Origin: Bryoerythrophyllum caledonicum
Taxonomy: Eukaryota; Streptophyta; Bryopsida; Pottiales; Pottiaceae
Direction: 5' to 3'
DNA length: 64,000 nucleotides
Assembly (NCBI GenBank): GCA_963971425.1
Contig: OZ020515.1
Span: 13,842,291 to 13,906,290 of the forward strand
The notes under the pieces were generated by a model. It worked only from the letters and a program-made list of their open reading frames with translations. It was not told the origin of the DNA and ran no database searches. The position numbers and the translations under genes were made by a program. Positions within the stretch are counted from its first letter, which is position 1. Each line of letters starts with the position of its first letter. Positions 13,645-59,350 of the stretch are shown piece after piece.

Positions 13645-14470
13645 TTCCTCTATTTGGATTGTTTTTTAATTTTATATGGGGCCTACTTTTGTTTTATTTT
13701 ATCTTTGAAATTGTCGATGTCCCATCTTATATTAATTGAAACACATGGAATGATTTAACACATTATCAAACAACTCTATTCCATTATTCAATCCATCCAT
13801 AAACCAAGGTATTGTTGTGTGTTACATGTAGACAAAACTGAGTACTGTATAAAATTCATAAGAAATTGTAGTAATGTAGAGAATTTACCACGTCTTTTGT
13901 AGTATGCTAAACAACATGAACGTGTTTCCGTGCTTCGTACCATACGCAATCGTTGGTATCAACCACTTTTTATTGAAGTATGTCAAATTCTCAATTACAG
14001 GTGGTTCCCACACCACAAGTATCACCTAGATATGATATGGATATCACCTAGGTATTATATGGATATCGCCCTGGTATTATATGGATATCATCTATGTATT
14101 GTAAGGGTATGGCCTTCCATTAATCCTTTTAATTTTTCAATTATTGGGAGAGTTTTATTCTCAATGAAATAAATACAAATACGACCAATGAGTAATTCAA
14201 ACCTGTTTTGTTATCCTAACCTAAATACCAAACCCATAAGTGCCCCTTTCATTTTGAAGAAAAATTGTTGCTCTAAGACCATCAAGTTGTCAACAATTCA
14301 GACTTCAATATGTCCAAATATTGTAGAGTTTTACATGATTTTTTACATATGTCAAGATAGACTAAATATAACCTACGGCCATAGGCGTTGCTTTCAAATT
14401 TTGTAAAGAAATTGTGGAAAAAAAAACAATAAAATTCAGTGCTCACCGTTCGCCGCTCGCCGCTCACGGC
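13645..14470. other. Spacer between the 3' ends of two convergent genes
   Basis: AT-rich DNA with no coding signal, lying between the stop of the plus-strand ParB/methyltransferase gene and the last exon of the minus-strand ParB/HAD gene. It presumably holds both 3' untranslated regions. It includes a 22-bp minisatellite at 14,020. Confidence 0.5.
14020..14107. repeat. 22-bp minisatellite, four units
   Basis: Four consecutive 22-bp units of the form TATCACCTAGGTATTATATGGA with one to several changes per unit. The last unit is the most diverged. Confidence 0.9.
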
Positions 14471-16618
14471 TCACAAGATAGCAATCTTGAGATGGACACC
14501 ATCATCTTTGTAAAGCTTCCGTTGAGGAGTACAATCGGTTCTATCTTGAACTTCAGCAAACATCTGCTTGAGAGGTGAAGGGGATGCAACAGGCACTATC
14601 CCAGCCCTCCGCTCCGGAGGGCTATCCACAACATCATCATCGACCTTCTACTTGGAGAAGTCCATGATAGCAGAGGCAGCATCAGTTGCAGTGCACATAA
14701 GATATGGTTTCGATTGCTGGGGCTGGGAGATGTCGCCACCATAAGACTCAGAGTACTCCGGAATGACGCTAACATCCAAGGGCAGCATACTACCAATATT
14801 CAGGCATGCGGTAGGATCAACACTAGACTTTGAAACCTGAAATACATTGGAATAAAGCAAGGAATGAGAGAAAGAACATGAACACATGCGAGGCAATGAA
14901 ATTATGATTGACTCGAAGATAAGTTCATGGAATCATAAGAAGTGACAAACACGACAAATATGTAGAAGGAGAAAACAAACGGATTTATATATTAACAATT
15001 TTCAAAATATATACAAGATTTACAAGTACGTTTTAGCTACAAGTAAATCACATAATGTATCCGGCGCACTAAACCTACATTGAAAACCCCTACATATATG
15101 AAGTTCCCCTATATCTTGAACATGAGTTACTCCTACAACTATTTAGGAGCTCATTTAAAAATATTAGGAATCTCGTACGCAGTACCCATGTTCCTTGTGG
15201 AGAGCGCCATTCCATCAATGATATGCTTCATTATAGGACTATCACGCACCAAAGGAGGTGTCCCTATACAATTACTATCGACGTAATTCTTCAACTGCCC
15301 GAGAGGACATTCAAAATGCAAGCGGCGAAGCCACGAAAGAAGGGTCCCGGTGAGAACATTATCATTTGTATCTCCGCGTCTCCATGGAGGCAAGAAGATG
15401 GCGTTCCCGGTAAAATTACAAACACTCTTCTCCGGGCTGTCGTCTATAAGAAGAGTGTTGTTGGAGTTAAAGACTACCGGCTCATGCCGAAGGCTAAACA
15501 ATGTTCTCGACAAGGTTTTCAAAAACATCCGCTTCTACTTATTATCTTTAGCCATGAGATACACATTCCGCGAAGTTTTTATTTGAGAACATTTCTCTTG
15601 ACCTAGAACAAGAAAAGGAGGTCCCAGATCCTTGAAGAGACAAGCCGCGATCGCCTCGACTGTGGATTTCTTCATAGAGCTCTAGATGACGACAGAGTTC
15701 AGAAAGTTTCTGATAACCGATACGAACTCACGAACACCAAGACGAAAGTAGACCGCCTTTGGTCCAATCAAGGTAGGAATGGTGGACGAATAATCAGTCC
15801 ATTGTGAGCTATGCACGGTAAGCCTCATAGCAATAGAGACTGAATTCGTCACGCATAGAATGACATTCAAATCCATGACGAGATTTAGCCACTTTGCTGG
15901 TCCGGCGCTCTCAACAACGGACACAGTTCTAGGAACAAGGTCCTGGGACAGGACCAACACACAATACAGTCAATGGTAGCAATAAGTGGTAGGTACCTGA
16001 TAAAATGCAGATTGAGTAATATGCAATGGAATTGCCACTGCTTGCACAAATTCCCCCCCACATAGCGACTGGGATACAACTATCCCAATTGGAGACTTCA
16101 ATGCAAGAGGACGGTGGACAATGTCATCCAATCCGATCTGAGAAACAATTGAAGAAAATGAATCGTTAAACAATTCTTTGAATTATGATAACATTGTATA
16201 TACAAAAATATACACTCCTCGTAAAGTACATCAAAATGCGTATGGATCTGACGCCTGCATGGAAACACATCCAAGAAAAAACCTACTGAGTCTAAGGTTG
16301 AGCACAGTCATTTCAAAAAAACAAGGCTGCACTTCGTGATAAAACGGCCAAAAATGTATTAAAAAGCTAGCCAACCTTATCCACCTCTGATGACTGTGGT
16401 CCGCAAGGCTTAGGAGACGGCTCGTAGTCGACGCGCTCCTCCATGCACACCTCTTCTCCCGCCACCGCAGCTACCGCATGAAACGACTCTTCTACAAGTT
16501 GAGCAGGGACCGAAAGAGTCGAACCGCCAGGAGCACCATCAACATTGACATCACGCACACGAACAGCAAAGCCGACCCCATCTGCCATAGGCAAAATCGG
16601 AGTTGAATTGGAAGGCTG

Positions 16619-16800
16619 AGTATCCTCGGGTCGAGGATACGCAGAAGGCCGGGACGATGAAGAGGGGATATCCCCAAGTAGAACTGGCACCTCAACCGAA
16701 ACGACGGCTTCTCCAAGTGGGTTAGATGATGTGCAAGCTTGCAATCCAGTTGAACGAGACTGAGACCCAGCGAAAGTGTTATCCTCGGTGCGAGGATAAG
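16619..16800 (-). repeat. Two 19-bp palindromes inside coding sequence
   Basis: TATCCTCGGGTCGAGGATA at 16,621-16,639 and a variant with centre GGTGC at 16,780-16,798 lie in the reading frame of the coiled-coil/Ser-rich part of the minus-strand gene. Each is read as a YPRxED peptide (YPRPED and YPRTED). They belong to the same palindrome family as the intronic copies. Confidence 0.85.
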
Positions 16801-17368
16801 TGGAGGGATGAGACACGACGGATCCGGATGGAACAGCGGGGATGGGAACCGAAATGTGAGCTTGCTCAGAAAGACGTTTGTTGAGTTCCGCCAACATCTG
16901 CGCTTGGATCTCGGCACAAATTGACGCCGCCATTCTCTCTTTCTCTTGAACAGACTCTGCCCGCTGCCTCTCGAAAGCAGATTCCATCTCAGCTTGTCTC
17001 TTCTGGGAGCCTCTAATTGTGCCAAGATTGTCTGCCTCTCCTGCTGCTCCAGAAGGCGTTGGTTGCGTTGGTGCTCATAAAAGTCAGCACCAGGTTCGTA
17101 CTTAACAGGCAGCCCAGGGGCCAGAGCATGCCCAACTGCATTTGCGAAGGCGTCATCAGGAAAAGATGCGCCCTCCACCGGAGACCGAGGGGCCGGAGCA
17201 TGCCCAATTGCATCTACGGAGGCGGCCTCATGTAGGGGAGCGTCCTCTAGATCCATCGTAACCATCATTGTCACCACGGTCGATGCCCCCACATTCTGAT
17301 GTACTGGGACGATCTCCACCTTCATCATCATTGGAGTCGGACATATTTGACAACGGTACGAGCGATGG

Positions 17369-17500
17369 GAACATCTGCTGTGGGGGCGGTACCAGCGACG
17401 GAAACATCTGCAACAAGGGCGCTACCATCGACGGGAACATCTGCTGCAGTGGTAGAACCAGCGACGGGACCGTCTGGTGCAGGGGCGGTACCAACCAAAG
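17369..17500 (-). repeat. 33-bp minisatellite encoding an 11-residue repeat
   Basis: Four in-frame 33-bp units within exon 3 of the minus-strand gene encode repeats of the type VAGTAPTADVP on the minus strand. The last unit is the most diverged. The period keeps the frame, consistent with expansion while the gene was still translated. Confidence 0.85.
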
Positions 17501-18105
17501 GAGATATGTCAGGACCTCCTTGAACTTCCATATGAACGGCTTCGCCGTCCACCGGAAGGTCTTTGTCCGCGAGCACAGGAGGTCGGCGAGGCGGCGATCT
17601 ACTACGAGATCTATATGACGGCTCACTATCATCCAAGCTAAGGATCGAAAGATCGACGCCGTCATTGCTCCCATATGGATTGACGAGCAAGGGAGAGTCA
17701 TCCTGAGGAGGCTGCTGAGTCGGAGCACCGCTACCAGATGCCCGGAGGGTATCGGGGGAGTCCTGCCGAGATCCAACACCAGAGCGTTGAGCACGTTGGC
17801 GAACACGTTCAGCCCTCCTTGGCGATATTCGGGCCCTTGGAACGCGTTCCGAAGGTGCAGCTTGAGCGGTTGACGTAGATGCACCTCCAGCGTTGGAAGG
17901 CAAAGGCTGAAGGTAAGTACAGTCTTTGTGGATGAAATCATTCATATCCAACTGAAAAATGCGCTGCATTTGACTCTTGTACTGAAGCCGGAAGGATTCG
18001 TCAATGAGTCCATAGACAGACATTCCAAACATCTGCATGAGAAAGAAGAAATTAAGATTAGAAATTGGATAATGGGACATACAATCTGAAATGAAAACAA
18101 TTGTC

Positions 18106-18234
18106 TATCCTCGACTCGAGGATAAACCACTGTAAGACTAATGATCAGACAAAACTATCTATCCTCGACTCGAGGATAGAATACAATGTTACAGACGACA
18201 GCATACCGTGAGGTATATCCTCGACTCGAGGATA
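18106..18234 (-). repeat. Three 19-bp palindromes in one 230-bp intron
   Basis: Perfect copies of the palindrome at 18,106-18,124, 18,160-18,178 and 18,216-18,234 (centre base C on the plus strand, so G in gene orientation). All lie inside the intron read between 18,262 and 18,033 of the ParB/HAD gene. Spacing is 54 and 56 bp. Confidence 0.95.
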
Positions 18235-19629
18235 GACTACAATAATTCAAATGAGAACGTACCAGATTGGCCAGCACAAATTTGGAACCACAGAAAATTC
18301 CGAAAATCCTCTCCTTCCGGTTGCAAAAGTCCCGGAGTAGCTCCAAGTAAAACTCCATCCGTAATTCCGAGCCGTGGACGGAGAATTCTGCCTCCAGATA
18401 CGTATTCTTCTCTTTGTAGAAGAATGTATCTGGTGCAGAATAAAACAGCCTCACTTTGTTGATGAGCACGGAAGCCTGGGGATGACGCTTCTTCACTAAG
18501 AAGAGTAGGTTCACATCCGTAACCTTAGCCCTCGACGTCCCGTAGTACATGCGCTCATTCGCTGACGAGCAGACGGGAGAATACCGGGCCATCCGCTTTT
18601 CGGCAAACTTTGCAGCTTGCAACGCGCGATTGGCAGAGGAGGTGATCCAGATCCAAACATGAGGAGTGCTCATGTTTGGGGTACTCTTTTGCAACTTCAT
18701 GGCATTCATGAAGTCTGCAAAGTATGGTTCATCCAGGGATCGTCCTTGGACAGCCAGCCGGGAACCTCATGGAGGTCAAGAAGTCCCAGTGTGAACTCCT
18801 TAGAATCATCTGGAGGGGTGAAGTAATCACCAAACTCCAGCTTCTCTGCATTAAACTCGCGGAGTTTCACATAACCATCGTGCGGGGTGAACAGATTCTT
18901 CAAATGTAGAAATTTCTTGAAGAACGGAAGAACGTTCAGGAACTTCTCCAGCAGATGAGATGCTCGTTTCAGCTTCCCTGCATTGGTCAACCTCATCAAC
19001 CAGAACTCTTTGTCGGGTTGACATAGGAGCACGTTGTAAGAAGCAAAAGACACACGATGTTTCTCCTTCCACTCCTTCCACATTGCGTCGTCGATCGACC
19101 CATTTGGAAGTAAAAACAATAAAGATGGGTCGATGTGCACCAGCTCTTACATGACGACGCGCTTCTTCTTCCTTCGATCAGCCCACTCCTCGTAGTGGTA
19201 GCGCGATCCATGTACTACGCCAGTCCTACGAAGGGTGACTTTTGGATAACCTTGCCCGCGATCACTGTCAACCAGGTAAGTGAACAAATCTCTTAAATCT
19301 TGGTCGGATAGATGACCCAACCTCTTAAAAAACTCGCGGTGGATTGGCGAAGGCTTGAAACCCCTAGCGTCCTTATATGGATAAGCTGTGTCGGGGTTTA
19401 CGATGACTCCGCGGCTGTGCTGATCAAGGAATTCTTCCCAGAGGTTGAAAATGTCATCGGGTAGAGTGATGACCTTTATCTCGTTCGTAAGGTCCGATGA
19501 CTTGTTTACTTGCTTTCCTTCTCTCGTGGGATCGATGTTCTGGAAGCGTGTGACAATCAACTTTGCAAACAACTGCAACACAATACAGACAACCTTAGAA
19601 AAATAAATCATGGATACATCATGGAAGAG

Positions 19630-19725
19630 TATCCTCGACTCGAGGATACTATAACAAGTAGCATAGAACATATTAACTAGCGGGTACACAAATGGGCATG
19701 GAAGATTATCCTCGACTCGAGGATA
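19630..19725 (-). repeat. Two 19-bp palindromes in a 174-bp intron
   Basis: Copies at 19,630-19,648 and 19,707-19,725 lie in the intron 19,746-19,573. The first is flanked AG..CT and the second AT..AT, so each palindrome extends by two further complementary bases. The intron happens to stay open in frame, so translation through it yields YPRVED. Confidence 0.95.
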
Positions 19726-21171
19726 ATTAAGGAACTGGAACCTTACCAAGTACTTCTCTTGGTCGAAGTTGACACCGTTTATTCGCAAGTCGCCCTCGTC
19801 ATGTTGGTAGCTGGGTCTCCCAGAGTTGAGCCAAATTCTTCTACAGCTTGAAATCTGGTTCCCCCACGTAGGCTGGGCATGATCAAGGTAGTTGGTGTCG
19901 TTGTAGAACTTTGAAATCCTCTGCAACTTCAGAGGATCGGTTGTCCACACAACATATGCATCCCAATGGCACAGGTCCCGCTTGCGCTGCTCCCCGCATT
20001 GCTCAACACGTTGAAGTCTTCTGGAAGCTTCGACACCGTGTTGTCCGTTGATGAGCATGAACTTCCCATCCTTGATATCGTCCCAGGAATTGGGCTTGTG
20101 CGTTATTGGTTCTCCCGCGTCATCGATTGGGCAGATGCAAATCTTTTTACGCTGATTTACCTCTCCAAGTTGGACCAGAAAGTCCATGGAGTTCCTCACA
20201 ATTCCCTCCTCCATCCCACGAATAACGAACTGGGCTTTGGCGGGCACACACTGTTCGATGTTTACGGTGAATGTAGACTCGAACGGGAAGCATGACTTGC
20301 ACTCCTCCCAGTACAGTCGTTGGGACTCCGTTATCTTCTCGAAGTCTACTTGTGGGTCATTCCGCGATTTCACCGACGTTGCAGCCCTCGTAACAGTCGA
20401 GGTCGAACTCCCACCGGCAGTAGCAGTCTTTTTTCGTTTGGACGGTTCGCCTAGATTTGAAGCCATCTCAGAAGCCCTTCGTGGAGCACCACGACTCGTG
20501 CTTCGAGTCGCATCTGCCGCTTCTGTAGTAACCTCAGCGGCTGTTGCGCTCTTCTGCTTGGGCCGACGACGAGGGGGAGCTACCGGAACCGGACGGGCCT
20601 CAAAGTTCGTAAGGAGTTGGTGAATACGAACCAGTCTCCGGTTAACCTTTTCAGCGTCGTTGTTTGACCACGGGCTATATTTTTCAAACGCTTCACGCAA
20701 CGCCCCCTGCCCATGTTTGTCGGCACCCTCAAGCAATTCGTTGAAGTTGAATTGCCCAGATATGTCACCCACTTTCACAATAGTAGAGTGAAAGTGAGGA
20801 AGGTCCTCACCAGCATCGTTCACGGCCTGGATACCGAGAATGATGTAATCGCGTCGACGCTGCTCCACGAACGTCACTCTTTCATTTTTGTTCAACGGAA
20901 CATATGGAATCTCTTCTTTTAGTTTGAAAGAGAGAAGAACGTTCTTCTCTGACCTACAGAAGGACCATCCCAGGATGTCGAGGTTGAACGACCACAGCTT
21001 CCCGTAGTTCTCGACGACGTCGTCAATGAAAGGCAACCGGGCGACGAGATTTTCGAACTCCGTAATGAAGTATGATGACCCCGAGTAGTCGTAGTCGTCG
21101 ACGGGATCCATCGGGATTGGCAAGCTGCGTAGAGTCATAAGAAAAACGAGTGAGAAAGTTGACGCTAACAT

Positions 21172-21857
21172 TATCCTCGACTCGAGGATAGATATTTATC
21201 GAGTCTAGCTTCATTAAGTTCATTTTTTACGTTTATCCTCGACTCGAGGATAAAGGCATTCTCTATGTTGTTAATTTAGATAATATTTCAATACAAAGAT
21301 CAAATTTATCAATTTTTGTGAATTTTACCTGGTGAGGTACTCAGAGGTTGGATTCTATCCTCAACTCGAGGATACAAAGGACTCTTGGGGATGAGATTCT
21401 CGTCAGCTTACTACATGCATCTATTACATATGCAATTAGTTTATTCTGATTTTTTATTAGTACCGGGTTTGTTTTTAACTTTAGAATGCACAGGAAACTA
21501 CTGGATATACAAGTATCCTCGACTCGAGGATACTTCAATCTGTTACGGAAGTGTTTTTTGTTATATTACATCATGCATTAGTATCAAACGACAGAATTAT
21601 TGTAAGTTGTCGAATAGTTCAATGTTTCTTAGTTTCTTAAATGAGCTGTATGCACAAGGTTGATACTTATCCTCGACTCGAGGATAGGTGGGACTGCGTC
21701 GAAGGGATTTCTTTAGCTTTATTCTTATGTAAAATTGTATTTGACTGACTTTTATCCTCGATGCGAGGATAAACTGTAAATAGAGTATTGACTTTTATCC
21801 TCGACTCGAAGATAAGCTATAAGCCGACGGACTATCTCGTATTCTTGACTCAAGGAT
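21172..21857 (-). repeat. Cluster of eight palindromes upstream of the ParB/HAD coding start
   Basis: Copies start at 21,172, 21,234, 21,356 (one mismatch), 21,514, 21,668, 21,753 (variant centre), 21,796 (one mismatch) and 21,839 (strongly diverged). They lie directly upstream of the acceptor at 21,125, so they sit in a 5' intron or leader. Copies become less perfect with distance from the gene. Confidence 0.95.
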
Positions 21858-22380
21858 AAATTGTGATCCCTCTTGAATCTGATACCCTCACCCCAGTAAT
21901 TACGGATTATATTATTTAGATGAGATCAAAATGAGACTTCTGCATTGCAACTCACATGTGATGAAAATTATTACCTTTCAAATGAAATGGGAGTCTGTTG
22001 TGTGATTGAGCTTTACAGTTGCACACAGTGCAGTGACCTGTGGAATAATGCAATGTCACAAAAGTAATCCACACAATAATATGGACAATGAAACACAAAA
22101 CCCGTCGAAATGTAAACTCAACGAAATCTACACTCCAATGTTATCACAAAACGTGCAATGTGTTGTTGAAACCCTAAACCCTGCCAGAATCTTGTAAAAT
22201 GCTATATTGCAAAATTCGAACAAATGAAACCCTGAACGCACTAAACACTTAACCTTAAACAAACTGAACAATCACATTCACAAACCCCTCGGAAGAAAAC
22301 AAGGTTAATCAAAACCCTAACCAAAACGAAACTCAACTAAACCCTAAAACGAACTAAACCTCACGAACACAGAACCGAAC

Positions 22381-22560
22381 AACACACACACACACCTAAC
22401 AACACACAAACTCCTAACAACACACACAGACACACACACCTCACGAGCCACACACGAAACACACACACGAAACACACACACTCACCTAACAACACTATGA
22501 CCGCACAACGCACACACACCTCACACCTAACACACCTCACACCTTAGAATGCAAACCACA
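22381..22560. repeat. AC-rich microsatellite
   Basis: Irregular (AC)n with CCTCACA, CCTAACA and CGAAACA interruptions. Confidence 0.9.
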
Positions 22561-23120
22561 ATACACACCTCACAACACGGAACTACAACTCCAACCTCAC
22601 CATACACACCTCTCAACTCACAACGTGACCTAACACAAACTGATAGAGAGAGAAGGTTGCGCAAAAACATACTACGTGAGAAGTTGAAAAAGAAGAGAGT
22701 GAGAGACAAGGGTTTGATAGAGAGAGAGAAGAGCTGTGACGAGAAGATAGAAGAGATGAGGAAGAGAGAATGGGGAGAGAAGTGAGGGAGTCGCGGTGGT
22801 TCACCGCACCGCCAAATTCCGTTTTGGGCAGCGCGGAGCGGGCAGGAGAAACGGGCAGCGGGCAGCCAAAAAAATTTAACTCAGCAAAGGGGACTTTTAC
22901 TGCAAAGGGGACTTTTTATTTCCAAATTTTTTCACCTCGTCTTGAAATTGAAAAACATCAAGTCTAAAATAATGTCTCTAATTTATGTGCAAAAATATAA
23001 TTTTTGGTGGTTCTTTGTCACTCTACAATAACAATGGCTTTTAGTGTAGTGGACACCAAATGCAAACCCATATACAAATTTAAAAGTTATCCATTGATGT
23101 AGTGACAATACTATACACTA

Positions 23121-23196
23121 AATGTCAACTACTATAGTAAATGTCAACTACTATAGTAAATGTCAACTACTATAGTAAAGGTCAATTCTATAAGTA
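23121..23196. repeat. 19-bp tandem repeat
   Basis: AATGTCAACTACTATAGTA occurs three times in tandem (23,121-23,177), followed by a degenerate fourth unit. Confidence 0.9.
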
Positions 23197-23949
23197 GTGC
23201 AACATTATATTTTTTACTTGTGTACATTTAGTGTATGTTACCTAGAAAATTACAATGTGTACATTTTTAGCATCAAAATAAAGAAGATTTTAAGCGCATG
23301 TAGAAAGAAGAAAAATATTTGCACGAGGAATGTTTAAAAACAAAAGAACGTACATATGGAACAAATGGAAAATCCCAAAAAATTGACAACAATAAAATGG
23401 TTCTGTGTAGAAAAATTGAAACTATAAATACTAGATTAAAAAAATTTGAACTTTGACTTAGAAGAAAAGAGGGAAAAGAAAGGAAAATTGGAATACAAAA
23501 CAACATAAAATATCTAATAAAAATAGAAGTTTCCATTACATACTCATTAGATATTCATTAAATATGCATCAAAAATTCATTGAAAATTTAATAAATATTA
23601 AAATATACATTAAATATACATTTTTAAATGATTATCTATTCATTAAGTATTATTTTATAATTTTGCAAATATACATTAATTTTGATATGTTAATCGTCTT
23701 TGGAAAAATAAATGTGAAACTCTAAATTTTTACTAAATGCTATTGAAGTATTTTCTAAATGATCTTAAAATATAATAATACTCAATAAGTATTCATTAAA
23801 TATACATATGTACAGTACATTAAATATTTGTCAAACATATCAATATACCTTAAATAAACCAATTTTCTTTACATACTAGTATATAATTTTTTCAATATTC
23901 TAAAAAAGATACAAAGATACATTAACTATTGTTTAATCTTTAAAGATTT

Positions 23950-24330
23950 CAATATACATATTACATTCTTGAAACATTCATTCAAGAATCTTCCATTGCA
24001 CTATTAAATTTAGAAATATACATTAATTATTCTTGAAAACATTCATTCAAAAATCATCTATATTTTCTTTAACATATAATTATACATTAAATATTATTGA
24101 AACATTCATTCACAAATCATCCATATTTTTTTCACACATAATTATTCATTAAATATTCTTGAAGCATTCATTCACAAATCACCTATGCATTTCTTAAATA
24201 TATAAATATACGTTAAATATTCTTGAAACATTCATTCACAAATCATCTATGCATTTCTAAAATATATAAATATACATTAAATATTCTTGAAACATTCGTT
24301 CAAAAATCATCTATTTTTTCTTCAATATAG
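23950..24330. repeat. AT-rich tandem repeat, unit about 62 bp
   Basis: Five to six diverged units share CATTAAATATTCTTGAAACA followed by TTCATTCACAAATCATCTAT and a variable T/A-rich part ending ATATAAATATA. Confidence 0.8.
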
Positions 24331-24896
24331 ATAAATACTTTGAATTCTCATTCTATATTCATGTTTTTCATTCAAGGAATGCCTGACATGTGAATTGGAT
24401 TAGTTAGGAATGGGAGGATAAGGAGATGAAGTTGAGGACAAGATGGGAAGAATAAATGCATGGCGGGCAATAGTCGGTTGATTGGGGGCGAACACTATTT
24501 GTCAACTTCTTACAAATTGTGGTGGGTGGATGATTGAGGCAAATACAACGGGTACTAGGGTAGGTGGACGATTGAAAGATAATATTAATGACAATGGGGG
24601 CTAATAGTATTTGGTAACTTGTTAACAAAGACTGTACCAGGGTAAATACACAATTTGTACTATTACACTAAAAGCCATCTTTAGTGTAGTTGTGGCAATG
24701 TGTGAAAATCTTTTACAGTTCTTCAAATGCATCTTTTTGCTACAAGCAATAAATGATTTTGGACAATATTAAAGAAAATGTATACAACTTACTAGTGGTG
24801 AAAATCTCAAAATTATATAGTGGTGTGGCCTAGCAAAAGTTTTTGGAGTTGCCGGAAGTGCTCGTAAATAATCAAATTTTTTAGAAATGGAATATA

Positions 24897-25264
24897 CCGT
24901 AGGTCAAGGGCACCTTCGGCACTTGGACGCCGAATAATTAATAATAGTCAAAAAAGTGGGTTTGGCTTTTTAAAAGAGGTTCTAGAAGATTTCGGCTAGA
25001 GTTCATAGATTAGACTATAATTAGCCTATTATGACGGCATAGGGGATTGAGCCTAAGACCTCGAGCTCCCTACTAGGAGCTCTTTTGCACACACTTCCAA
25101 GAATCAAGGCTTTCCAAGCCAGAACTCCCCATTGATGTCCTTTGTGTTCAAAGATTTTGTATAGTACTATTTTCTTCAATTTCGGCATTTCACTCAATAA
25201 TTTCCCAAATCATTCGGCATGCCTTTTTTGAATTATTATAGCCGAAGGTGCCCTTCACCTACGG
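24897..25264. mobile_element. 368-bp MITE with TA target duplication
   Basis: Termini CCGTAGGTCAAGGGCACCTT and its complement (right end 25,241-25,264) differ at one position in the first 24. TA lies on both sides (24,895-24,896 and 25,265-25,266). The other arm of the surrounding inverted repeat shows the uninterrupted sequence, giving an in-window empty site. TA duplication fits a Stowaway/Tc1-mariner-type MITE. Confidence 0.85.
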
Positions 25265-26088
25265 TATTGTTTCATTGAAATCCAAATGGATATAGCATGT
25301 TAAAGTTCAAAAACATATTTTCTAACTATATGGAGTACTTTGAACACGTTCAGAGAGCTAGTGTAAAGTAAAAAAAAAAACAAGTGGAGAAATCAATATT
25401 CGAATGTACTTAAAAAACAAGAAATAAATCAAACTTTATTGCAGCAAAAAACAAACCTTTCATATAAAAAAAAAACCTACAGGGTGGATTTAAATTCTTT
25501 ATAACACCAAAGGAATTAAAGTAAATGTACAATCTAGGTCTAACTGATTATTCTAAATGGTATTGAATTCAAAACTTTAAAATGCTTTTGTTCACTGAAA
25601 AAAGAAATTAATGCTATCCATCAATAATATACACATGGTACTAAGAAATTACTTTTAAAAGTGCTAATGACTTTAATGTAACTTTATGGATAATTCTGAT
25701 ACTTTAGAGTATGCAAATACAACTTCAGTTTAATAAAAATCTATAATTTATACTTATGCACTAAAATGTATGTATGTATATTAATATAGTCATGGGCAGA
25801 ACAGGGAAATGGGAACCTAAAGGTGCGCATTGTGATCAAATTATTTGTCCCTAGGAATGCAAATAGAAAACTGTGCAAAATAATTCAAGAAATAAAAAAA
25901 TTGTGTTCCCTTATGACTTTTATTGAAGATCACAAATATGATATTCCATTTGCAAATACATGCATGAAAATGAAAATGTACTTTGACATTTTTACTATAG
26001 AGATGTATATAAACATGAATATATATAAATTCACATGTACAAGCCGAACATTGGTTTTCCCATGGAATCCATGATCAATTATAAATGT
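25265..26088. other. Inner part of the long inverted repeat, no genes
   Basis: AT-rich, with short A runs. It partly matches 28,330-28,560 in inverted orientation. No coding signal is seen. Confidence 0.5.
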
Positions 26089-26736
26089 TACTAGTATCGG
26101 TACCCGTCGTTCCGACCGGGGAAGGTTTTTTATTAGTGCTCCTCAGAATATTTTGTTTGACGTATTATATTTTAGATTGCAATTTGCATTGCCATTCAAC
26201 TTCTTAGGTAACTTTTGGAAATGGTAGATATCCAACAAAGTCAAAGTGAGGTAATCCTGGTATAATCTATCACACGGCCAATCCAGAATGAGCTTCAACC
26301 AAGAGACATGGACTGTATATATAGCTTCGGGCATTTTCATTGTGAGTTTAAAATAAGTGCATGTTGCTGATGTAGTCTAATTGAGGAGCATGAAGGCACA
26401 TATTGCACTACCTGTAATCATCATAAAATTTGGTGAGGTTTTGAATCTCATGGGAAAATCATCTCATGAACACCTTGAAAAATCTTAAAGTTACACAAAC
26501 ACGTTGTCCCCGTCCTCCATGCCATAGCTCACAGTTCCATCTCCTATCCCTTTCTCGCCCCTCTCAAGCTCTTCCAGAAGCCGAAAGTTCCGCGGAACTA
26601 CACACAACAACTCACTCCAATGTCAAACCCTAATAAAATCCTCCAAACCACTCCACTGCCCTAAAACCTACTCAGCAGTTTAAAATAAACTCCCTAAAAC
26701 CTAACAAAAACAAAAACATGCAAGCAAGAACAAACC

Positions 26737-26880
26737 CTGTGCAGAAGACTCATTGCTGCCGAGCTTGACCTCACGCAGTCCTTCAGCAAGCCTCGCAGCT
26801 ACCTTTTGCTTCTCCATATTTCCAACGCCTCAATTCTCTCAATCTCCGCCTCTGCCTCAAGCCGAATCTCTTTCACTTGC
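26737..26880 (-). pseudogene. Possible captured exon, unknown coiled-coil protein
   Basis: On the minus strand, one frame reads VKEIRLEAEAEIERIEALE and a second reads MEKQKVAARLAEGL with REVKLGSNE following. Both are protein-like and GC-richer than the surroundings, and a frame shift between them is likely. I do not recognise the gene. Its position inside the Helitron-like element suggests a captured fragment. Confidence 0.3.
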
Positions 26881-27440
26881 CAAAAACCATTCCAATAAAC
26901 TACGCACCATTAGAATTTGAGCTTCCGTGCTTAGGGCCAGGGAACAAAATTACTGTGAAGAATACACAGTCTAACCGATCAAGACTATCAAGTAGTAGCA
27001 AAAACTTCAGGGCTTCTTTCTCAATGTTCTACATAATCAGCTTTTAACCGGACCGAAATGAAAGCTCAGAGTATATTCAAACCAAAACCAAGACAATTTG
27101 CAAACACTCAATCCAATTTCTCACACACATTGCATTACTTCACATTCAGGGAGGAAGCACATGACAACAATGGTGACAAACTCACCCATGATGCCAGATT
27201 CATACAGGGAGAGAATGAAAGCAACCCACATGAAGCCTAGAAGCTCAAGCATGGGTGGGGAGTACCCGGCAGTGGTAGTCCACAATTATGTCAGCCCATT
27301 GCAGAGTTTGTATTCACTCTCCATTTACATGAGAGACAATGCTACAAAAGCTGATCCAAGTGAACACCTGACATACATCAAAATTTGAGCTAAATTGCAA
27401 CCCTAATATTTTGAGCACTAAATTAATGTTGATATTTTAG

Positions 27441-27726
27441 GTCATCACGATACAGATTCAGCAGACCTCGTGAACCAAATGCGTAAGAGCTACGGGCTGA
27501 CCAAGTCGAGGGAACGCACCAGACGTACGTGGGTTGTCCCAGCTCTGGCAGTGATTCACCTGGTAGCATTCGTCCTCACCATGTCGCACAACAACTGCGA
27601 CCGGAAAGACGACTGTATCTTTCTCTTCGGGAAGAGCTTCCCATTCCAGCCACTTACGGAGAATCCCCTCCTGGGACCATCGGCCATCTCTTTGTTGGAC
27701 TTCGGCGCTCTGGAATCAGATCTAGG
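27441..27726 (+). pseudogene. Rhomboid-type intramembrane protease fragment (captured exon)
   Basis: The exon is bounded by TTTTAG| at 27,440 and |GTATAC at 27,727. It encodes a charged N-terminal stretch, a hydrophobic segment (WVVPALAVIHLVAFVLTMS), then NNCDRKDDC and FPFQPLTENPLLGPSAISLL with FGALESDL. This is the pattern of plant rhomboid-like (RBL) proteins at and just after the first membrane segment: a conserved NNC, F.P...NPL.GPS and GAL. The catalytic GxSx and His segments are absent, so only the N-terminal exon is present and no protease activity is expected. It lies inside the Helitron-like insertion, which is known to be a setting for captured gene pieces. Confidence 0.7.
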
Positions 27727-28589
27727 GTATACCTACTCGGTTGTGATCAGCATCAAAGCTTCTCAAAAAAACAGAAGGACTCGCGAAATGGAACTCGCAT
27801 CCTACATACAATCTCGCCTTTTCTCGCCTACAGAGTGACTGGAGCCCCAAGCTCGAGCTTGAGAGTGAAGTTGGTGTCGTTGGCAGACCCAGTCTCAAGG
27901 GCAGACGCTTCTTGGTCTGTTGTGCGGTTATGGTCTTCTTGGTCTGTTCTACGGCGATGGTCTTCTTGGTCCAACAGGGAGCGGCGGTCAGACAGACTGT
28001 CGCTTGTTATAGTAGTAGATAATTACTTACCTTTTCTTGGCAAGCAAAAGTAACATCGAGAGGAATTTAAATGCAAGCAAATAAGTTGATCATACACCAC
28101 ATAGCAATTTCATTGATTTCAAAGTTCCAAATGTTTTTGTAAATTACTAAGATAAATAAATATTTAAAACCACGTTCTTAAAAACGAACTATTAAAATTC
28201 AATTCATAGTTAAATGTGTGTCTGGGACACACATACACAGACTCACACATAACACTTACACACTCATTTACAGAATTTAAGTCGACAAATGAGAAGAAAA
28301 ATGGGTATGAATTAAAGTAAATTTGTCAATTTCTAAATAAAAGAATGCAACATTGACTTTTTTTAATCAAAGAATGCCACTTTTAAAAGTCACTTCTCTA
28401 GTACTATGTGAATATTATTTATGGATAGCATTCAAATAATACCAAGTGCAATATATTCACTAATGTGGATTCAAGCGGAATATATTCACGAATGTGGATT
28501 CAAGTAGAATTCAAGTTGATATATATCTTTATAACTCCAAGTGAATTTTGATTTCAATGAAAGAGTATATTCCATTTATAATTTTTTAT

Positions 28590-30160
28590 TCATTGTGAGC
28601 ACTTCCGGCAACTCCAAAAAAACTTTTGCTAGGACACACTACTAAAGACAGGATTTTCAACACAAGTAAGTTGTATACATTTTCTTTTATATTGTCCATT
28701 ATCATTTATTGTTTGTAGTGAAAAAATGCATTTTATCCGAGTCAAATATTTTCACAAATTGCCACAAATAGTCAACCAAGGATGTAGAAAAACATAATTT
28801 TTTTTTACATATATCTTTGACACTTTAAAATTTTCACTATGTATTAGTTCTATTACAAGACGTGGTATAAACCTTCTTAGTGACCGTGGGAATTTTCATT
28901 CTAAAGCATACTTTGTTCCCAAAATATTAAGGCATGAACTGGCATTATTCCAACCTCCACTCCTTGCACTATATTTTTGAACATGCTACACCCCTTTTTT
29001 ACCTCTTCAAAATGTGTAAAATAATTAATATCATGCTAAATACCATGATGTTAATGGCCGTGACCTTGTATAGTGTAAAAACTGTACACCAAATGAGGTC
29101 AAAGTCCGCTGATCCACTAAACGTTGGGATGGAAATGAACCATTTTTTCTACTTCAAACACTATAATCTTCCAATACGTGCGCTCAAAGTTCTTGACATT
29201 TCATGAGCATGTTATTTATTAAGAATTTATTGAGATCGTACGGTTGGAATTAGATATACAAATCTTTGTTTCCTTCCTTCATTATTGCACTAGATTTTTC
29301 AAAGTTGAAGAACTTTTGGAGTGAAATTGATAAGGAAATATAGGTTCTACATTATAAATAATAGTTGATGTAAATTGCTTTGAAAAAGTAATTTAATCCC
29401 TAGCGTACCGTGACAGTTTTACACCAAAAACACTTCAAACTTTTTGGATTCTAGTGCAATGAACAAAGAAGGAAACAAATACTTTGATTTTTAGTCCTAA
29501 CCGTACAATCTCAAATAAGACTTGCACAATAAGATACTCTCAGTATTTCATAAACCTTGACCGCACGGATTGAAAGATTATAGTATTTAAAGTCATGCAA
29601 TTGGTTTGTTTTCCTCCCCGCGTTCAGTGGAATAGTTGACTTTGACTTCACTCAAAAAATTTCACTACACAAGGTCTAATTCCGTTACGATCTTGTGAAC
29701 ATGACGTTAGTTCCTTACACACTAGTTTTTAGAGGTAGCGGACCGGTGTAGCAAATTCAAAACAACTGTGCAAGGAGTGGAGGCTCAGAATTTGTTGTTT
29801 CGCAGTTAAATTTTTTTTTTAACTTAATATGTTTTAGATTGATAATTCTTATGGTCATTAAGAAGGTATACACTACATATTGTTGTGGATAAAATAGGAA
29901 AGTGAAAAATATAAAGATATCTAGGTTTTATGTGGGAAAGAAGAAGTTTTTTTGGTAACTTGCCCGACAATAAGTGACAACGTGTGAAAATGTTTCACTT
30001 GGGTTGGTATGCTATTTTTCACTAAAGACAAGAACTTTTTATCAACGGTACAAATTGAAATAATATTACTTGCAAGTATTGAGAATCTCACATTTGATAT
30101 AGTGTCATAGCAAAAGTTTTTGGAGGTGACCGAGGTGCCCGCCCTCCCTTTTTGAAATTC
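28590..30160. repeat. Foldback element, arms of about 0.75 kb
   Basis: The left arm (28,590 to about 29,430) reads GAGCACTTCCGGCAACTCC at its outer edge. The right arm (about 29,440-30,160) ends AGCAAAAGTTTTTGGAGGTG. Both arms share, in inverted order, a GTGCAAGGAGTGGAGG block (28,965 and 29,770) and blocks around TTTGACTT and GCACTAGA near the centre. The loop is very short. The left arm's outer part also pairs with 24.7-24.9 kb, so the family occurs in several orientations here. The small ORFs inside are not convincing genes. Confidence 0.8.
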
Positions 30161-30860
30161 AAAACCCTATAATTTTTTCTTCAAATGTTGAATTTAGGAA
30201 AAACTGTTTTCCCACTAAGGTCAAAACAATGGTTCATTTTCTTCCTTGCGATGAGTAGATCTGAAGAATTAGACTTCACTTTGTATCAAATTTTTGCATT
30301 GTACGAGGTCTAAATCTTTTACCATTGTCTTAAGCATGATGTTATTTCCCACACACCATTTTTTAGAGGTAAAAAAGGGGTGTAGCATATTCAAAACAAG
30401 TGTGCAAGGAGTGGAGGTTTAAGAATTGCCATTTCATTTTTTATTTCTTTTAACTACGTATGTTTTCGAATGATAATCCAAACGGTCAATAAGAAGGTTT
30501 TCACCACATATTTTTGATGTAAAAATAAAAAGTGAGAAATATGAAGATCTTGATTTCTAGAGTTCATGTAGAAAAGAGGAAGTTTTTTTCCCCCGTTGCC
30601 CGACAATGTGTGAAAATGTTTGACTTGGGATAAAATACCTTTTTATACTAAAGACAAGATTTTTTTAAAAATTATCGAAAGAAGGAAATATTCTTTATAT
30701 GTGAGAAAACTCAATGTCAATAGAAACTTTAGTCAAAAAAATTGGAGCGTCCCGGAGTCCCCATTTTTTACTTTCAGTGGTACGATTATTCAATCCTCAA
30801 ATCCAATATTTTTTCTTCAAATATCTCCACGCACCTGTTATTAGAGGCAATCTAGTATAA
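30161..30860. repeat. Additional right-arm copy of the same foldback family
   Basis: The block at about 30,360-30,420 (GGTGTAGCATATTCAAAACA, then GTGCAAGGAGTGGAGG) and the block at 30,470-30,680 repeat the order seen at 29,750-30,060. They match 52,850-53,190 in inverted orientation. Confidence 0.7.
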
Positions 30861-31640
30861 ATTTTTCAATAAAAATGGAATTTTTGACAAATTTTAGGTA
30901 CATGCCCGAAATCCCATTTGGCCCCGGGGGGGCAGTTGGTCCTATAGAGGTTGAAGGCGATAAATTCGTGCCACTACTTATCCAAAAGACTTGTTCAATG
31001 CATGCGTGGATTTCGGGCTAGTGGCGTACTGAAATTAGTGCGTATGTCGATCCAAAAATAGGACAGCGGCAGCTAAAAAGTTGGACAGAGGATACCATTT
31101 CCCGCCCCCCAAATCCTGGAGCCGTTGGAAAGGAGTTTTCCCGCGCACCGCTGATTTTTGAGCTCCGCTTCGCAGATGACTACCGTATGCTCATTTTCAG
31201 AAGTTCATTTCCTACTTTTGCACTTCCTGGATCCTCTCTTCTCTCTCTACTCCGCTCACTGTCTTGCTTCTTTTGAGAACATTCACAGTAGTTGTCAATA
31301 CTATGTCTGAGGTTATCTGAAGTACGTTGGGTTTTTTTGTTGACGCATCCTTGTGGAGTGCTCGATTTCTTATCAAAGGTACTTCTACATCATGAGATTG
31401 TTGTCTGAGGCTGTTCTTGAGCAATCGAGGGCTACTTGACCCAAGCCCATAGGCCGTCCGCATCACCGCAGTTTGTTCACACTATGTGTAGTATTTCTTT
31501 CGTCGTCGAAGTCATAGATATCGGTGTAGAACTTCTAATTCACTATAGAATTTGCATGCAATTAGAAGAAAGTGTGCTGTGAATGCTCCAACACTATTCA
31601 TGATCACTGTAGCATATCACTGAACTACTTCGAAACTAAG
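30861..31640 (+). promoter_or_regulatory. Putative promoter and first leader exon region of the DUF7869-type gene
   Basis: The stretch at 31,060-31,260 is GC-richer than its surroundings and contains a pyrimidine-rich CTCTCTTCTCTCTCTACTCC run, as is common near plant transcription starts. No ORF is convincing. A leader intron ending at the AG before 32,447 would place transcription start in this region (inference). Confidence 0.3.
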
Positions 31641-31644
31641 CATT

Positions 31645-32301
31645 TATCCTCGAGTCGAGGATAACACCGACTCTTGCCAATTCAGCTGACAATTAACGAA
31701 TCCTTCAAATGAAATCCTCCTTACATTTATCCTCGGGTCGAGGATAACACTGACCCTTGCTAATTTAGCAGTCGATCTACGAGTCCTGTGAATAAAATCC
31801 TCATTTCATTTATCCTCGGGTCGAGGATAACACTGACTCCTACTAGTTCAGAAGTTGATCAACGGATCCTAAAAATAAAAATCCTCATATAAAGACTGAA
31901 TTTTTCTGTTCGATTGAGATTCACATTATAGTATTCTAAAGTAAAATTACGTGGTCTATCCTCGACCCGAGGATAAACCCAACATATGGAAAAAATCAAT
32001 GCCAATCTGAATTATAATCAATTGTGCTTGATCACTAAAATTGAGATATCGCCTACACTTCTTTAATCCTCGAGTCGAGAATGTACCGAAAATCGTCTAT
32101 TATCAAACTGCTTGATTTTATTGTCTACAATGAATCTTATCGAGTTCTATGTTGTCTGATGATATTTCGCAGGACCATGCACATATGTCGCTCTCTCTGT
32201 TGGATTCATACAACTAGTATCCTCGACTCGAGCATAGTGTTTTGAATATATTTTCATGTGTTTTTATAATTTTTCTCATTCATATCCTTGAGTCGAGGAT
32301 A
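31645..32301 (+). repeat. Seven 19-bp palindromes in the DUF7869 gene leader
   Basis: Copies start at 31,645 (TATCCTCGAGTCGAGGATA), 31,728 and 31,811 (centre GGG), 31,957 (inverted GGG form), 32,064 (diverged), 32,218 (one mismatch) and 32,283 (one mismatch). They belong to the same family as those around the ParB/HAD gene. Four or five of the seven have the same strand orientation relative to the gene. The segment between copies 2 and 3 is a partial 83-bp repeat (TTTATCCTCGGGTCGAGGAT with CACTGAC following). Confidence 0.95.
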
Positions 32302-32446: not shown

Positions 32447-35260
32447 ATGGAAGAAGACTCATTTGATGTCAGAAATCGAGTTCCACCAACCTTGCCTCCC
32501 GGTGTTGCTCCTTGTGAGGGTATTCCTCGCGCTGCCTGGTTTTCAAAGCGCGTTATCCTTCGAAATACATCAAGGAATAATGTGGGAATTGGACTATGTC
32601 AGAGTGTTGATTCCAACTTAATTCCCGAAACTGGAGGTCGGCCACTTGGAGATGACCATGTTGCGGTTCTGATTGCTGAATCTTTAAATGAAGATGATAT
32701 TCCTTTGAATTGGATGTTTGCTCTCCGAGCATGGCCAATTCGACAGGTCTTTCTTCCTAATGTGAGTTTGTACGATCAAGAGCAAACTTGCATTTACAAT
32801 GCTGCTCTAAAGGTATTCCGTCGGGGTCCAAGAATTGGTGTTCGACAGTATGAGAGCAATCGTCAAAGGCGAGTGCTGCCTTCTCCACCAAAGAAGGAAG
32901 TACTCCTTTCTGCACAATCGATCAACCTTGTTGCGAGCGTTGTTTGTTGTCCAAGAAATTGTACTCAAAGCTTTCCACGCAGTTTAATTTCTGTACTTCG
33001 AACGCAAGTTCACAATGACATTGGAGGTGTATACTTTCGGAAACATGTTTTACTTGATGTGCATAGGCAAATGCACATTGACTCCAATGGCAACCATGTG
33101 GTGATGCTTGATGGAATTGATGTATGCCAAGATGCATGGTGTACAATCATGAGGGTCAGCCGAGCCACATTCTACCGATAGAAAAGTGATGCGAAGGATG
33201 AAGTGCGAGCGATGGCACACGACAATTCTGGAACTAAGAAGCCTCGCACCCATACTCTCCAAGCAATTGCTACATTGCACGACCTACTTGACGATGCTGC
33301 TGATAGTAGTCATAACAAGACTACTACACTTGGCACTGGGAAGAAGGTTGTTTCGAAACATCTTCCCTCCTCCTTTCAATGGAGTGCAATGTTGCCCAAA
33401 GTAAACGAGGTGAATTCAAGATTTGGCCTCAAGCCAATATCTTTGTCTGGTCTTAGCCGAATTCGAAGCTCCAAATTTGAACAATTTTTCACTAAGAAAC
33501 CGGGTGACAACTTTGCTCGTTGCGGTAGATGCGACCAATTGAAGCAATTGAAGAAGGCTAGTACGCGAGGGTCGTCCGCATTCAATATGTGGGATACCAA
33601 ATTAAAGTTGCATCAGGCCTCCCAACAGACTCATCGTATTTTATATTATGGGAACCGGAAGAACTCGGAGGATAGGCCTGATGACGTTGTTTGCATCATC
33701 CATCATAAAATGGATCACAGCAAAACATCATCTCCTCATTTTTCTCACAAGAATAAGGCAACAGAGTCTTTCATGAAACTCCCCGTAGTTGTGACTGGAA
33801 TGATTGCTTATGGACATGGGGATGTCCGTTATGCACATTATAGTCTTGACATCTTCCCCACTGACTCAAATCACACTGTTGGATCCATTGCTAAGTTACT
33901 TTGGGACTTAGAGAGTCCACCGGTATATTCTTCTCGTGAATTATTTGCAAGAGGGAGAGCTTCTCCTCTATCTCAGGCAGTGCTTGTGGATGCTAATGTG
34001 TGCCTTGGATCCCTTGCGGCTCCACCGGTTGAACCTGTTCCAGCAAGGCAATTACCACCAATTCTCCAAATGCAATTGGATAATGCCACAGGAGACAATA
34101 AGAATAGATTTGTGTTTGCTTTCTTCTCCCTACTTGTTCATTTGGATATTTTCCGAGAAGTACAGGTGAACTTCTTACTTGTTGGTCATACTCACGAGGA
34201 TATTGATGCAATGTTTGGGAGATGGAGTACCAAACTTAAGTCAAATAGCTATCCAACGATTCCACTCTTGATGAAGTCATTCATGGAAGCTGAAGAGAAG
34301 CCAGTTATTCCACATCTTATTGAAGATGTGCCTGACTTCAAGGGCTTTCTTGATGGATATTTGTGCAACGGCAATGAGGCCCTTACGGGTCATACAAAGG
34401 GCCAGCAGTTCAAGTTTTATAAGGACTCTGATGGTTTGCCAAAGATGCAGTACAAAATTCTTTGTACAGACAGGGATTGGTTGCCCGAGGAGAATGGAGG
34501 AATTCAGTTGTGGAAAATGACGGCAGATGGTAGACCAATATTGCCTCATGGGCAGCCACTTCCTCTCATTCCGCATCGTCATGAGAATTATGATGAGGTT
34601 ATGAAGGGTATTTCTGGGTTTCTAAGTCTATGGGAATCTATGGCAAATGAGGATATCTCAGGTGAATACAGGAGGAAGAATGAGCATATCATGTACTATT
34701 GGAGGGGTGTAAAGGCCGCTCTTGAGGTGCCATTAGAAGAATCGACTTCCCTACGAGAGGGATTTTGGCCACTATCTAGATATGCTCCGTCTATTGTTGA
34801 TGAATATGATATAGATGGTACTTTGAGGGAGGAGTATGCAGAAGACTCTCCATTCATTGGACAACGACGTCATTGTCCGCCTCCATTGTTCCGGGTTGGT
34901 AGAGATGTATATGAGGGCTATGTACTTGCGGTGCGTTCAGCTGATGGGGATTTGCGCCCATTTTGGATTGCCTTGGCATTGACTAATCCACATCCGGATC
35001 GTGAACATTCTCATGAGATTAAAGTGCAATACTACAAACCTGCATCCCAACGTCATGTGGACTTCGAAACGTACCAAGGGTGGGATTCTAGTAATGGGAA
35101 CAATTGGGTTGAAGAATCTGAATCTGAATCAATCTGGGTATATACAGATTGCATTGTAACAGCTTGGAAGCCTAGGTTCTGTGGGAACACTAGCTCTTCG
35201 AGGCTCAAAATTCCGAAATCTCAGGTAGAAATAATCAAGGCATCTTTAGCTGAATATTAG
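32447..35260 (+). pseudogene. DUF7869-type, transposase-like ORF with one in-frame TAG
   Basis: A single frame of about 938 codons runs from ATG 32,447, directly after TTTTGTAG (a plausible acceptor), to TAG 35,258-35,260. It is interrupted once by TAG at 33,179-33,181. Before the stop: a basic N-terminal region and DGIDVCQDAWCTIMRVSRAT, a helix-turn-helix-like segment typical of this family. After it: GTKKPRTHT, CGRCDQLKQL, IIHHKMDHSK, QLDNATGDNKNRFVFAF and LLVGHTHEDIDAMFGRW. The spaced acidic residues in MDHSK, QLDN and HTHEDID suggest an RNase H-fold nuclease, so a transposase role is inferred; the family is formally of unknown function. The C-terminal 300 residues look like a chromatin- or BAH-type module but are not assigned. 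Either a single nonsense mutation or readthrough explains the stop. Confidence 0.8.
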
Positions 35261-36013
35261 ATTTCAACAGGTTCTGTGGTTTTTGATGACAAGAGTTATC
35301 CTAGTCTTTTGAAATAGGTGGGGGTGCATGTCCTTATTTGAACTTGTGTTGTTTCAGGCTGGATATTGTACTAAGTATGTATTGAACATGGGGGTTGTCG
35401 TGAAATTGAGACGTTGAATGTTCGCGTAGCATATTTGTAGACAAAAATTATATTATAATTTGTAGTTTCACATAGTGATGTATTGTATTGCTTCAATATC
35501 ATTAAATGTTGTCGTTTGTTTGTAAAGTTATTGATGGATAAATTGTGGTTAACATTGTGTGTTTGATTAATTGTGCATTTATCCTTGACGCATTGATACT
35601 TTCTATTAAAATAAATAATTGAATGTATTTCTACAATATGTGCTAATTTTTTTGTGATTGGTATTTCAATGACCTTGTTGTTTGAAACAAGTACCACCTC
35701 TTGAAATTGGTAAATTTTATTTCCCTTCAAATTGAGAAGACATGCATTTTGGGTGGCATGTAAATGAGAGTATATGTCTTATTTTAGTCCAATTTTGAGC
35801 CCTGCTAGGGATGCTCAAATTTTTGCCGCTTAAATTTTTATGGAGTATTTTTATTCTTGCTATGATAATTTTTTGGGATGTAGTAGTTGGCAATTTCAAT
35901 CGAGCTTAAGTCTCAATATAATAAATAGTCTCAAATTAATGAAACAGTAAATTGACTATAATTAGACACTGATGAATTGAGACTCTGAAATGTCTCATTT
36001 TAATGAATATGGC
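35261..36013. other. 3' flank of the DUF7869-type gene
   Basis: AT-rich, no coding signal. AATAAA-like motifs and T-rich tracts occur, but no terminal inverted repeat of the element was recognised. Sequence similarity to the right-hand duplicate begins abruptly at about 36,014. Confidence 0.5.
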
Positions 36014-38665: not shown

Positions 38666-38781
38666 TGCGAAGGGATCGATCGAAGGCGGAGTAAAACGCG
38701 AGAGATCACGAGGAGGTGCAGGAGTAGCTAGCGGACTAGTGCAGGAGCAGTGGTGAGCGATGATTTGCATGGGAGCTGGAG

Positions 38782-38796
38782 GGCTTTATATAGGTC
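38782..38796 (-). promoter_or_regulatory. TATA box of the valine-rich gene, copy 1
   Basis: CTATATAAAG on the minus strand, about 120 bp upstream of the chosen ATG. It decides against the upstream in-frame ATG at 38,770, which lies too close to the box to be in the transcript. Confidence 0.6.
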
Positions 38797-59219: not shown

Positions 59220-59335
59220 TGCGAAGGGATCGATCGAAGGCGGAGTAAAACGCGAGAGATCACGAGGAGGTGCAGGAGTAGCTAGCGGACTAGTGCAGGA
59301 GCAGTGGTGAGCGATGATTTGCATGGGAGCTGGAG

Positions 59336-59350
59336 GGCTTTATATAGGTC
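59336..59350 (-). promoter_or_regulatory. TATA box of the valine-rich gene, copy 2
   Basis: CTATATAAAG on the minus strand, about 120 bp upstream of the chosen ATG, identical to copy 1. Confidence 0.6.

Follow-up and report, generated by a model that had tools for sequence, protein, structure and literature searches.

A family of 19-bp palindromes was found in a 64,000-nucleotide stretch of the Bryoerythrophyllum caledonicum genome (contig OZ020515.1, positions 13,842,291 to 13,906,290; this whole stretch is called the window). The palindromes were clustered in the leaders and introns of two genes, one encoding a DUF7869 protein and the other, its partner gene, labelled ParB in an earlier note on this DNA (label unconfirmed). 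Both palindrome-bearing genes are parts of one DNA transposon with inverted-repeat ends and two divergent genes. We lean to the reading that the palindromes are family-specific sites recognised by a protein which the element encodes and which would maintain expression of its own family, probably through anti-silencing.

Palindromes in the window and in the genome

The palindrome, designated type 1, is TATCCTCGA-N-TCGAGGATA; in practice it is TATCCTCG-NNN-CGAGGATA, with two 8-base arms and three variable bases between them. With up to 3 mismatches allowed, 42 strand matches were obtained in the window, corresponding to 22 places, and none in 100 shuffles. Fifteen places were located in 16621-21858 and 7 in 31645-32301, with none elsewhere in the window, inside or outside the transposon; the cluster of about 22 copies (15 + 7) described in the earlier note is real. 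That note had called for a genome-wide count at up to 2 mismatches and had set a uniform genomic distribution beforehand as the outcome refuting a tie between the motif and these two gene families. Scanning the 437-Mb assembly at this threshold yielded 3619 forward and 3602 reverse matches (3 and 0 for the reversed control), i.e., about 3600 places, and a uniform distribution was not what was found (see below).

Leaders and introns were indeed the main hosts, since these segments, about 2 kb of the window, hold 20 of the 22 sites. The partner-gene leader array (21172-21858, reverse strand), delimited by motif scan and aligned copies, contains 8 sites. Five are in two introns on the same strand, namely 2 in intron 1 (19573-19746; sites at 19630 and 19707; GTAAGG donor and TTGCAG acceptor) and 3 in intron 2 (18033-18262; sites at 18106, 18160, and 18216; GTACGT donor and ATGCAG acceptor); the splice signals are those of the window copy, and the borders used in the site tally were 4 bp and 3 bp shorter, respectively. 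The DUF7869-gene leader array (31645-32301, forward strand), found by motif scan, contains 7, the first three at 83-bp spacing. The other 2 sites, also from the motif scan, are in coding exons (16621-16798, reverse strand) and are translated as YPRPED and YPRTED. At ≤3 mismatches, no type-1 site was present in the intergenic 9.7 kb (insertion included) or in the DUF7869 coding sequence of the window copy.

Most copies had been described as keeping the same orientation relative to the gene. Judged by the central base only, this agrees with the window, where 17 of the 22 sites have a G there as read on the gene strand, but not with the other loci, which were mixed: 89 G, 27 C, 11 A, and 5 T for sites on the partner-gene side and 24 G, 19 C, and 2 A for those on the DUF7869 side. 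Central-base orientation is a habit of one gene side and no general rule. A strand bias of type-1 sites on contig C1, hinted at by a first listing, was absent in a later sample.

The palindrome-bearing genes belong to one transposon

The window copy of the ~21-kb DUF7869 transposon spans 14490-36016, as indicated by homology to loci L013, L017, L019, L022, L030, and L032. The two genes had been assigned to two unrelated elements 11 kb apart; this was ruled out by homology of the copies, a shared right end, and target duplications, which place both genes inside the single element. The right terminal inverted repeat (..GTCTCATTTTAATGAATATGGCNTT, 35992-36016, forward strand), identified by comparison with fetched right ends, is common to at least 40 places, the window among them. 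The right end finishes ..GTCTCATTTTAATGAATATGGCGTT with small changes, the terminal letters being GGCGTT in 9 of 10 fetched right ends and GGCATT in the other, GGCATT in L009, and GGCCTT in the window. The left end is AACACTATATTCATTAAAATGAGAC, again with small changes.

Two complete copies were found, C1:18815147-18836376 (21.2 kb, target duplication TACT) and C1:29816839-29837305 (20.5 kb, target duplication GCAT). Each was counted as one element because of its two ends and target duplication; both were read in part between the right end and the fetched region, with C1:18832000-18834499 of the first copy outside the sequence read. The target duplications are 4 bp long, as is a third one, GAAG, which belongs to the nonautonomous copy treated below. 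In the window copy both genes are broken, and an insertion at 26091-28018, missing from the copies in L013 and L017, is a later event. The left ~1.1 kb of the window copy is gone, cut off by another transposable element (TE) whose end is 14489. This TE end (13950-14489) is of high copy number; the best 40 of 1005 candidates were scored, and the full-length matches listed were 91-99% identical.

Twenty-one 10-kb regions (L009-L029) were chosen for their motifs, all on contig C1. A homolog of DUF7869 or of partner-gene exons was contained in 19 of them, with L028 having only the NIF open reading frame (ORF) described below and L011 no element-gene homolog.

The DUF7869 gene, a transposase candidate, is located at 32447-35260 on the forward strand and matched Pfam PF25273 with E=1.5e-45 (155.6 bits, above the cut-off of 26). 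Its protein has 937 amino acids in open copies, e.g., that of L043. The window copy has an in-frame stop at 33179-33181; conserved programmed readthrough was considered and rejected, with only the window and L027 having the stop among 7 copies. The partner gene (16370-21111, reverse strand) has three main exon blocks, defined from ORFs and homologs. It carries an in-frame stop and a frameshift in the window; in L042 the exon blocks are open, yet at least one in-frame stop lies between two blocks, and none of the partner-gene copies read was fully open. A search of the PDB with an exon-1 profile gave a single match at E=0.45, which was not used.

Downstream of the partner gene, on the same strand, is an ORF for a NIF (FCP1/SCP-like HAD phosphatase) protein, with its open part at 15154-15534 and 3 stops in the window match. 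The open homologous ORF, L042:3040-3867, matched Pfam NIF PF03031 (E=6e-13, 49.2 bits, cut-off 21.8). By Pfam score, the NIF ORF is assigned to the NIF/FCP1-like phosphatase family, its catalysis being predicted only, and it may be either the last part of the partner gene or the next gene.

Conservation of the sites and their association with the element

For measuring conservation, site columns were set on one copy and divergence was determined among the remaining aligned copies. In the partner-gene leader (6 copies), the arms diverged by 6-8% and the surroundings by 24-31%; in the two introns (4 copies), the values were 3-7% and 14-21%. In the DUF7869 leader, they were 2.5-3.7% and 7-25% for group 1 (3 copies, one pair per reference) and 3.4-4.3% and 5-7% for group 2 (6 copies). 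The gap was small among recent copies and large among old lineages, whose site arms were three to five times less diverged than the surrounding partner-gene leader. This pattern would fit selection acting on lineages that keep moving.

The tie to these two gene families holds genome-wide. Of 93 sampled type-1 matches, 55 were within 25 kb of 103 listed DUF7869 or right-end places, the surroundings of which amount to no more than 1.2% of the genome; the 93 came from a subsampling pattern, and several share one element and hence are not independent. Ten of the other 38 matches were fetched, and with the palindrome masked 8 of these matched noncoding sequence from known elements (for L052, a stretch of only 61 bp). 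As the control, 30 pieces taken at random from the window were compared with the same element library, minus the window itself, and 1 of them matched.

Contig C1 makes up 65 of the 437 Mb and carries 55 of the 93 sampled type-1 matches. It looks TE-rich and is perhaps a sex chromosome or an otherwise low-recombining one.

Related families carry palindromes of their own

Locus L029 has a diverged DUF7869 gene with 43% identity over 526 amino acids. No type-1 palindrome was detected in L044, the 5 kb upstream of this gene; it has instead TCAGCTCGACTCGAGCTGA, a 9+1+9 palindrome that shares the type-1 core. An unrelated 9+1+9 palindrome, GGATGTTGCGGCAACATCC, is also located upstream of this gene (L044:962-980). 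A second type, TCAGCTCGA-N-TCGAGCTGA, was predicted from the diverged relative and was borne out by a genome scan with ≤2 mismatches, which gave 5157 and 5229 places (0 and 1 in the control), with 100 exact ones among the places listed. This total includes a third type, because the two differ by just two bases. Searching for the core pattern TNNNCTCGANTCGAGNNNA gave 9490 places, compared with 32 in the control, and revealed the outer arm TTAG of type 3, TTAGCTCGA-N-TCGAGCTAA. All three types have the common core CTCGA-N-TCGAG, with the outer arms TATC, TCAG, and TTAG for types 1 to 3.

At ≤3 mismatches, L045 and L046 have 14 and 20 type-2 sites beside diverged homologs, with 28-34% identity in the partner-gene exons and 39% in DUF7869. 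In both loci the sites are upstream of the partner-gene homolog and between exon blocks 1 and 2; they also follow block 2 in L045, a place that the L046 sequence ends short of. In L047, 16 type-3 sites are situated upstream, between blocks 1 and 2, and after block 2 of a third partner homolog, which is accompanied by its own NIF-like ORF. The three palindromes occupy matching noncoding places of homologous genes. The upstream arrays of L045-L047 have recurring spacings of ~52, 53, 74, and 75 bp, which are close to integral numbers of DNA helical turns.

Exact type-2 or type-3 arms were absent from the 23 type-1 loci (L009-L028, L042, L043, and the window), while L044-L046 have exact arms of type 2 only and L047 of type 3 only. 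L029 itself has one type-1 site, inside a miniature inverted-repeat transposable element (MITE). Between types 2 and 3, each arm differs at a single base and the identity of the partner proteins is 44-57%; between type 1 and the other two, the values are three bases and 27-33%. This co-divergence of arms and proteins is one concordant comparison, not tree-wide proof.

Predicted role of the palindromes

We infer protein binding, the identity of the binder, dimerisation, and anti-silencing. An element-encoded protein, probably a dimer, would recognise the copies of its own transposon family via the palindrome and, once bound, would maintain the activity of promoters, leaders, and introns in both element genes. 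It would most likely oppose silencing, or possibly act as a plain activator. The partner-gene protein is the first candidate for the binder and the DUF7869 protein the second. Each family would have its own outer arm around the common core, and protein and sites would change together, so that families would not activate one another.

More tentatively, the palindromes may form an independently evolved self-recognition code, with a fixed core and a changeable outer arm, in which a reader, perhaps joined to a NIF-type phosphatase, overrides the silencing of its own family only, and code and reader diverge together as families split; we regard this as possible, with the odds against it. No description of such a system was found in the literature searched, which left most subscription papers outside its coverage, and no paper on DUF7869 was found in the literature library searched.

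Alternative explanations

The palindromes might be transposase accessory sites required in cis for mobilisation, like the 19-bp internal repeat of piggyBac, an explanation that we consider unlikely but the one to be weighed first. It draws on a nonautonomous MITE of 255 bp (L029:4894-5148) with element-like ends and the GAAG target duplication, which has a type-1 palindrome near its centre. Among the best 40 of 332 candidates, 30 were full-length over 255 bases (query included), and the 40 places listed were spread over 12 contigs. All 20 other copies sampled, from 39 listed, have the central palindrome with 0-3 arm mismatches; it is intact in 5 of them, and the founder probably had the palindrome, which decays in later copies. 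Speaking against such a role, the arms of the MITE are no better kept than its flanks (divergence 0.11, compared with 0.08 and 0.16). Good sites are also lacking from the terminal stretches of the full element: at ≤2 mismatches, no type-1 site was detected in the leftmost 1.9 kb (L030) and 2.8 kb (L032), where only degenerate ones are present, and at ≤3 mismatches the window copy lacks sites in the 756 bp that precede its right end. The window sites are separated from the element ends by roughly 3 kb or more and are situated within leaders and introns.

That location would also suit RNA or single-strand DNA hairpins acting in transcripts (splicing, translation, small-RNA production, or stability), which we hold to be quite unlikely. 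A structural RNA had been suggested in the earlier note; in its favour, the flanks covary. In 74 type-1 flank clusters from 295 sites, 4-mismatch sites included, pairing at +1 was 57% compared with 44% after shuffling (p=0.0025) and at +2 was 54% compared with 29% (0 of 2000 shuffles reached the observed value). In 16 unclustered type-3 sites, the values were 81% and 51% at +2 (p=0.0035) and 62% and 34% at +5 and +6. Changes on the gene strand included 12 A>G against 3 T>C, as hairpins would favour. On the other side, type-2 flanks, which are long and largely fixed (GCATAT..ATATGC), paired no more than shuffled ones at +1 to +9 (38 sites, lowest p 0.056; +10 p=0.033), and the wobble and core tests gave no clear support: G-U-tolerant changes (60, compared with 45 others; C>T 48, G>A 42) were not clearly favoured overall, and no clear compensatory excess was observed in the core pairs. 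According to the available portion of PMC8794818, template-switch repair of imperfect palindromes can yield such covariation without function. The flank covariation may reflect some hairpin use or template-switch homogenisation.

A host transcription factor could bind the sites, which the transposons would exploit as promoter elements; the leader position, the palindromic, dimer-like form, and the shared core are compatible with this. It is nevertheless improbable in our view, as the three outer arms in three related families track protein divergence, and host promoters are not a main location because 8 of the 10 fetched sites away from listed copies match element noncoding sequence.

The earlier note also raised parS-like partition sites and a very small mobile element. 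High copy number, clustering, and the ParB label would favour these, yet both are highly improbable: the sites hold homologous positions when leaders are aligned, and in six partner-gene leaders no site is cleanly present in some and missing from others; thousands of dispersed sites are unlike a partition locus, and no ParB family was detected in 16 exon-1 sequences of the partner gene, several of which are fragments, with Pfam at E up to 1, or in further Pfam and PHROGs searches.

Family-specific sites read by an element-encoded protein remain the explanation that we prefer, and several observations weigh against it. No DNA-binding domain was found in the partner gene with Pfam and PHROGs, the helix-turn-helix matches in the DUF7869 protein were weak (E=0.0028 with PHROG and 0.043 with Pfam), and two predicted structures were too poor to use (predicted local distance difference test scores of 34.6 and 31.1). 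The correlated palindromic extension past 19 bp exceeds the needs of a simple dimer site. The MITE palindrome, no better kept than its flanks, also fits a cis role in mobility. Allowing ≤2 mismatches gives a single type-3-like site in L028 and a single type-2-like site in L029, and two of the 10 fetched sites are poorly accounted for, L049 matching known elements over 34 bp only and L054 not at all. The comparison comprises three families, type 2 represented by L044-L046 and type 3 by L047 alone, on one contig.

Other features of the window

At 8860-9523, palindromes of 26-34 bp built around ACCTTCGGATCCGAAGGT form a tandem array, just ahead of an ORF at 9798-10412 that is ParB-like by eye only, unconfirmed (PHROG ParB, E=0.55). 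This palindrome has 416 places genome-wide and none in the control; among the places listed, five arrays on contig C2 are ~5 kb from copies of the TE end 13950-14489. This may be a further TE whose leader carries an array of palindromes. Near-identical ORF sets at 37751-38785 and 58182-59339, ~20.5 kb apart, indicate a local duplication, and a Copia-like ORF of 1253 amino acids, stop to stop, occupies 44291-48052.

Comparison with known systems

The ParB-parS system resembles the present case in having clustered palindromes near a gene, here one earlier called ParB-like. It differs in that no ParB domain was detected here and that the sites, which number in the thousands, are scattered among transposons and specific to a family. 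In Spm/En, TnpA binds repeated subterminal sites and relieves methylation. Its sites are subterminal, whereas the terminal stretches of the DUF7869 element lack good sites.

Fungal DNA transposons encode a TET/JBP dioxygenase that may counter DNA methylation, according to the abstract portion of PMC12730594. The likeness is a gene possibly countering methylation; no dioxygenase was found in the DUF7869 element, and no family-specific site arrays are mentioned in that portion of the paper. According to the available portion of PMC7351741, the cysteine-rich domain of the piggyBac transposase binds, as a dimer, a 19-bp palindromic repeat of its DNA transposon. This repeat is located in the terminal inverted repeats, whereas the DUF7869-element sites are in leaders and introns, away from the ends. 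Target choice also differs, the duplications TACT, GCAT, and GAAG not being the TTAA of piggyBac.

VANDAL elements are Mutator-like and have a Mutator-like transposase gene. The DUF7869 element is not a VANDAL member, because its DUF7869 gene and 4-bp duplications are not Mutator-like, and the likeness, as far as the present analysis goes, is one of site arrangement. A further difference is the NIF phosphatase ORF next to the partner gene here. In Arabidopsis, the motif regions of VANC21 are located in the introns of VANB21 and VANC21 and upstream of VANA21, with tandem repeats, and motifs differ between families (available portion of PMC5735166). The palindromes are read here as VANC-like family-specific sites because they agree with published descriptions of VANC and VANDAL in position, conservation, family specificity, and co-divergence. 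In the portions of PMC5735166 and PMC10398659 available, the shared traits are noncoding motif arrays, including partner-gene introns and the region upstream of the transposase gene, enrichment of the motif in its own TE family, a different motif per family, and a partly tandem arrangement; VANDAL motifs, however, are 8-9 bases long and in one orientation, whereas those described here are palindromes of 19-35 bp with a shared core. Family-specific anti-silencing by short motif arrays is, in the literature found, described for VANDAL elements. If the reading is correct, the DUF7869 element would be a structurally distinct second example from another class of transposons, which would suggest that such codes arise repeatedly. 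DUF7869 would gain a transposon context that includes ends and target duplications. The shared core with changeable arms would provide a natural series for comparing reader with code, and how transposons change specificity without losing function would become directly testable.

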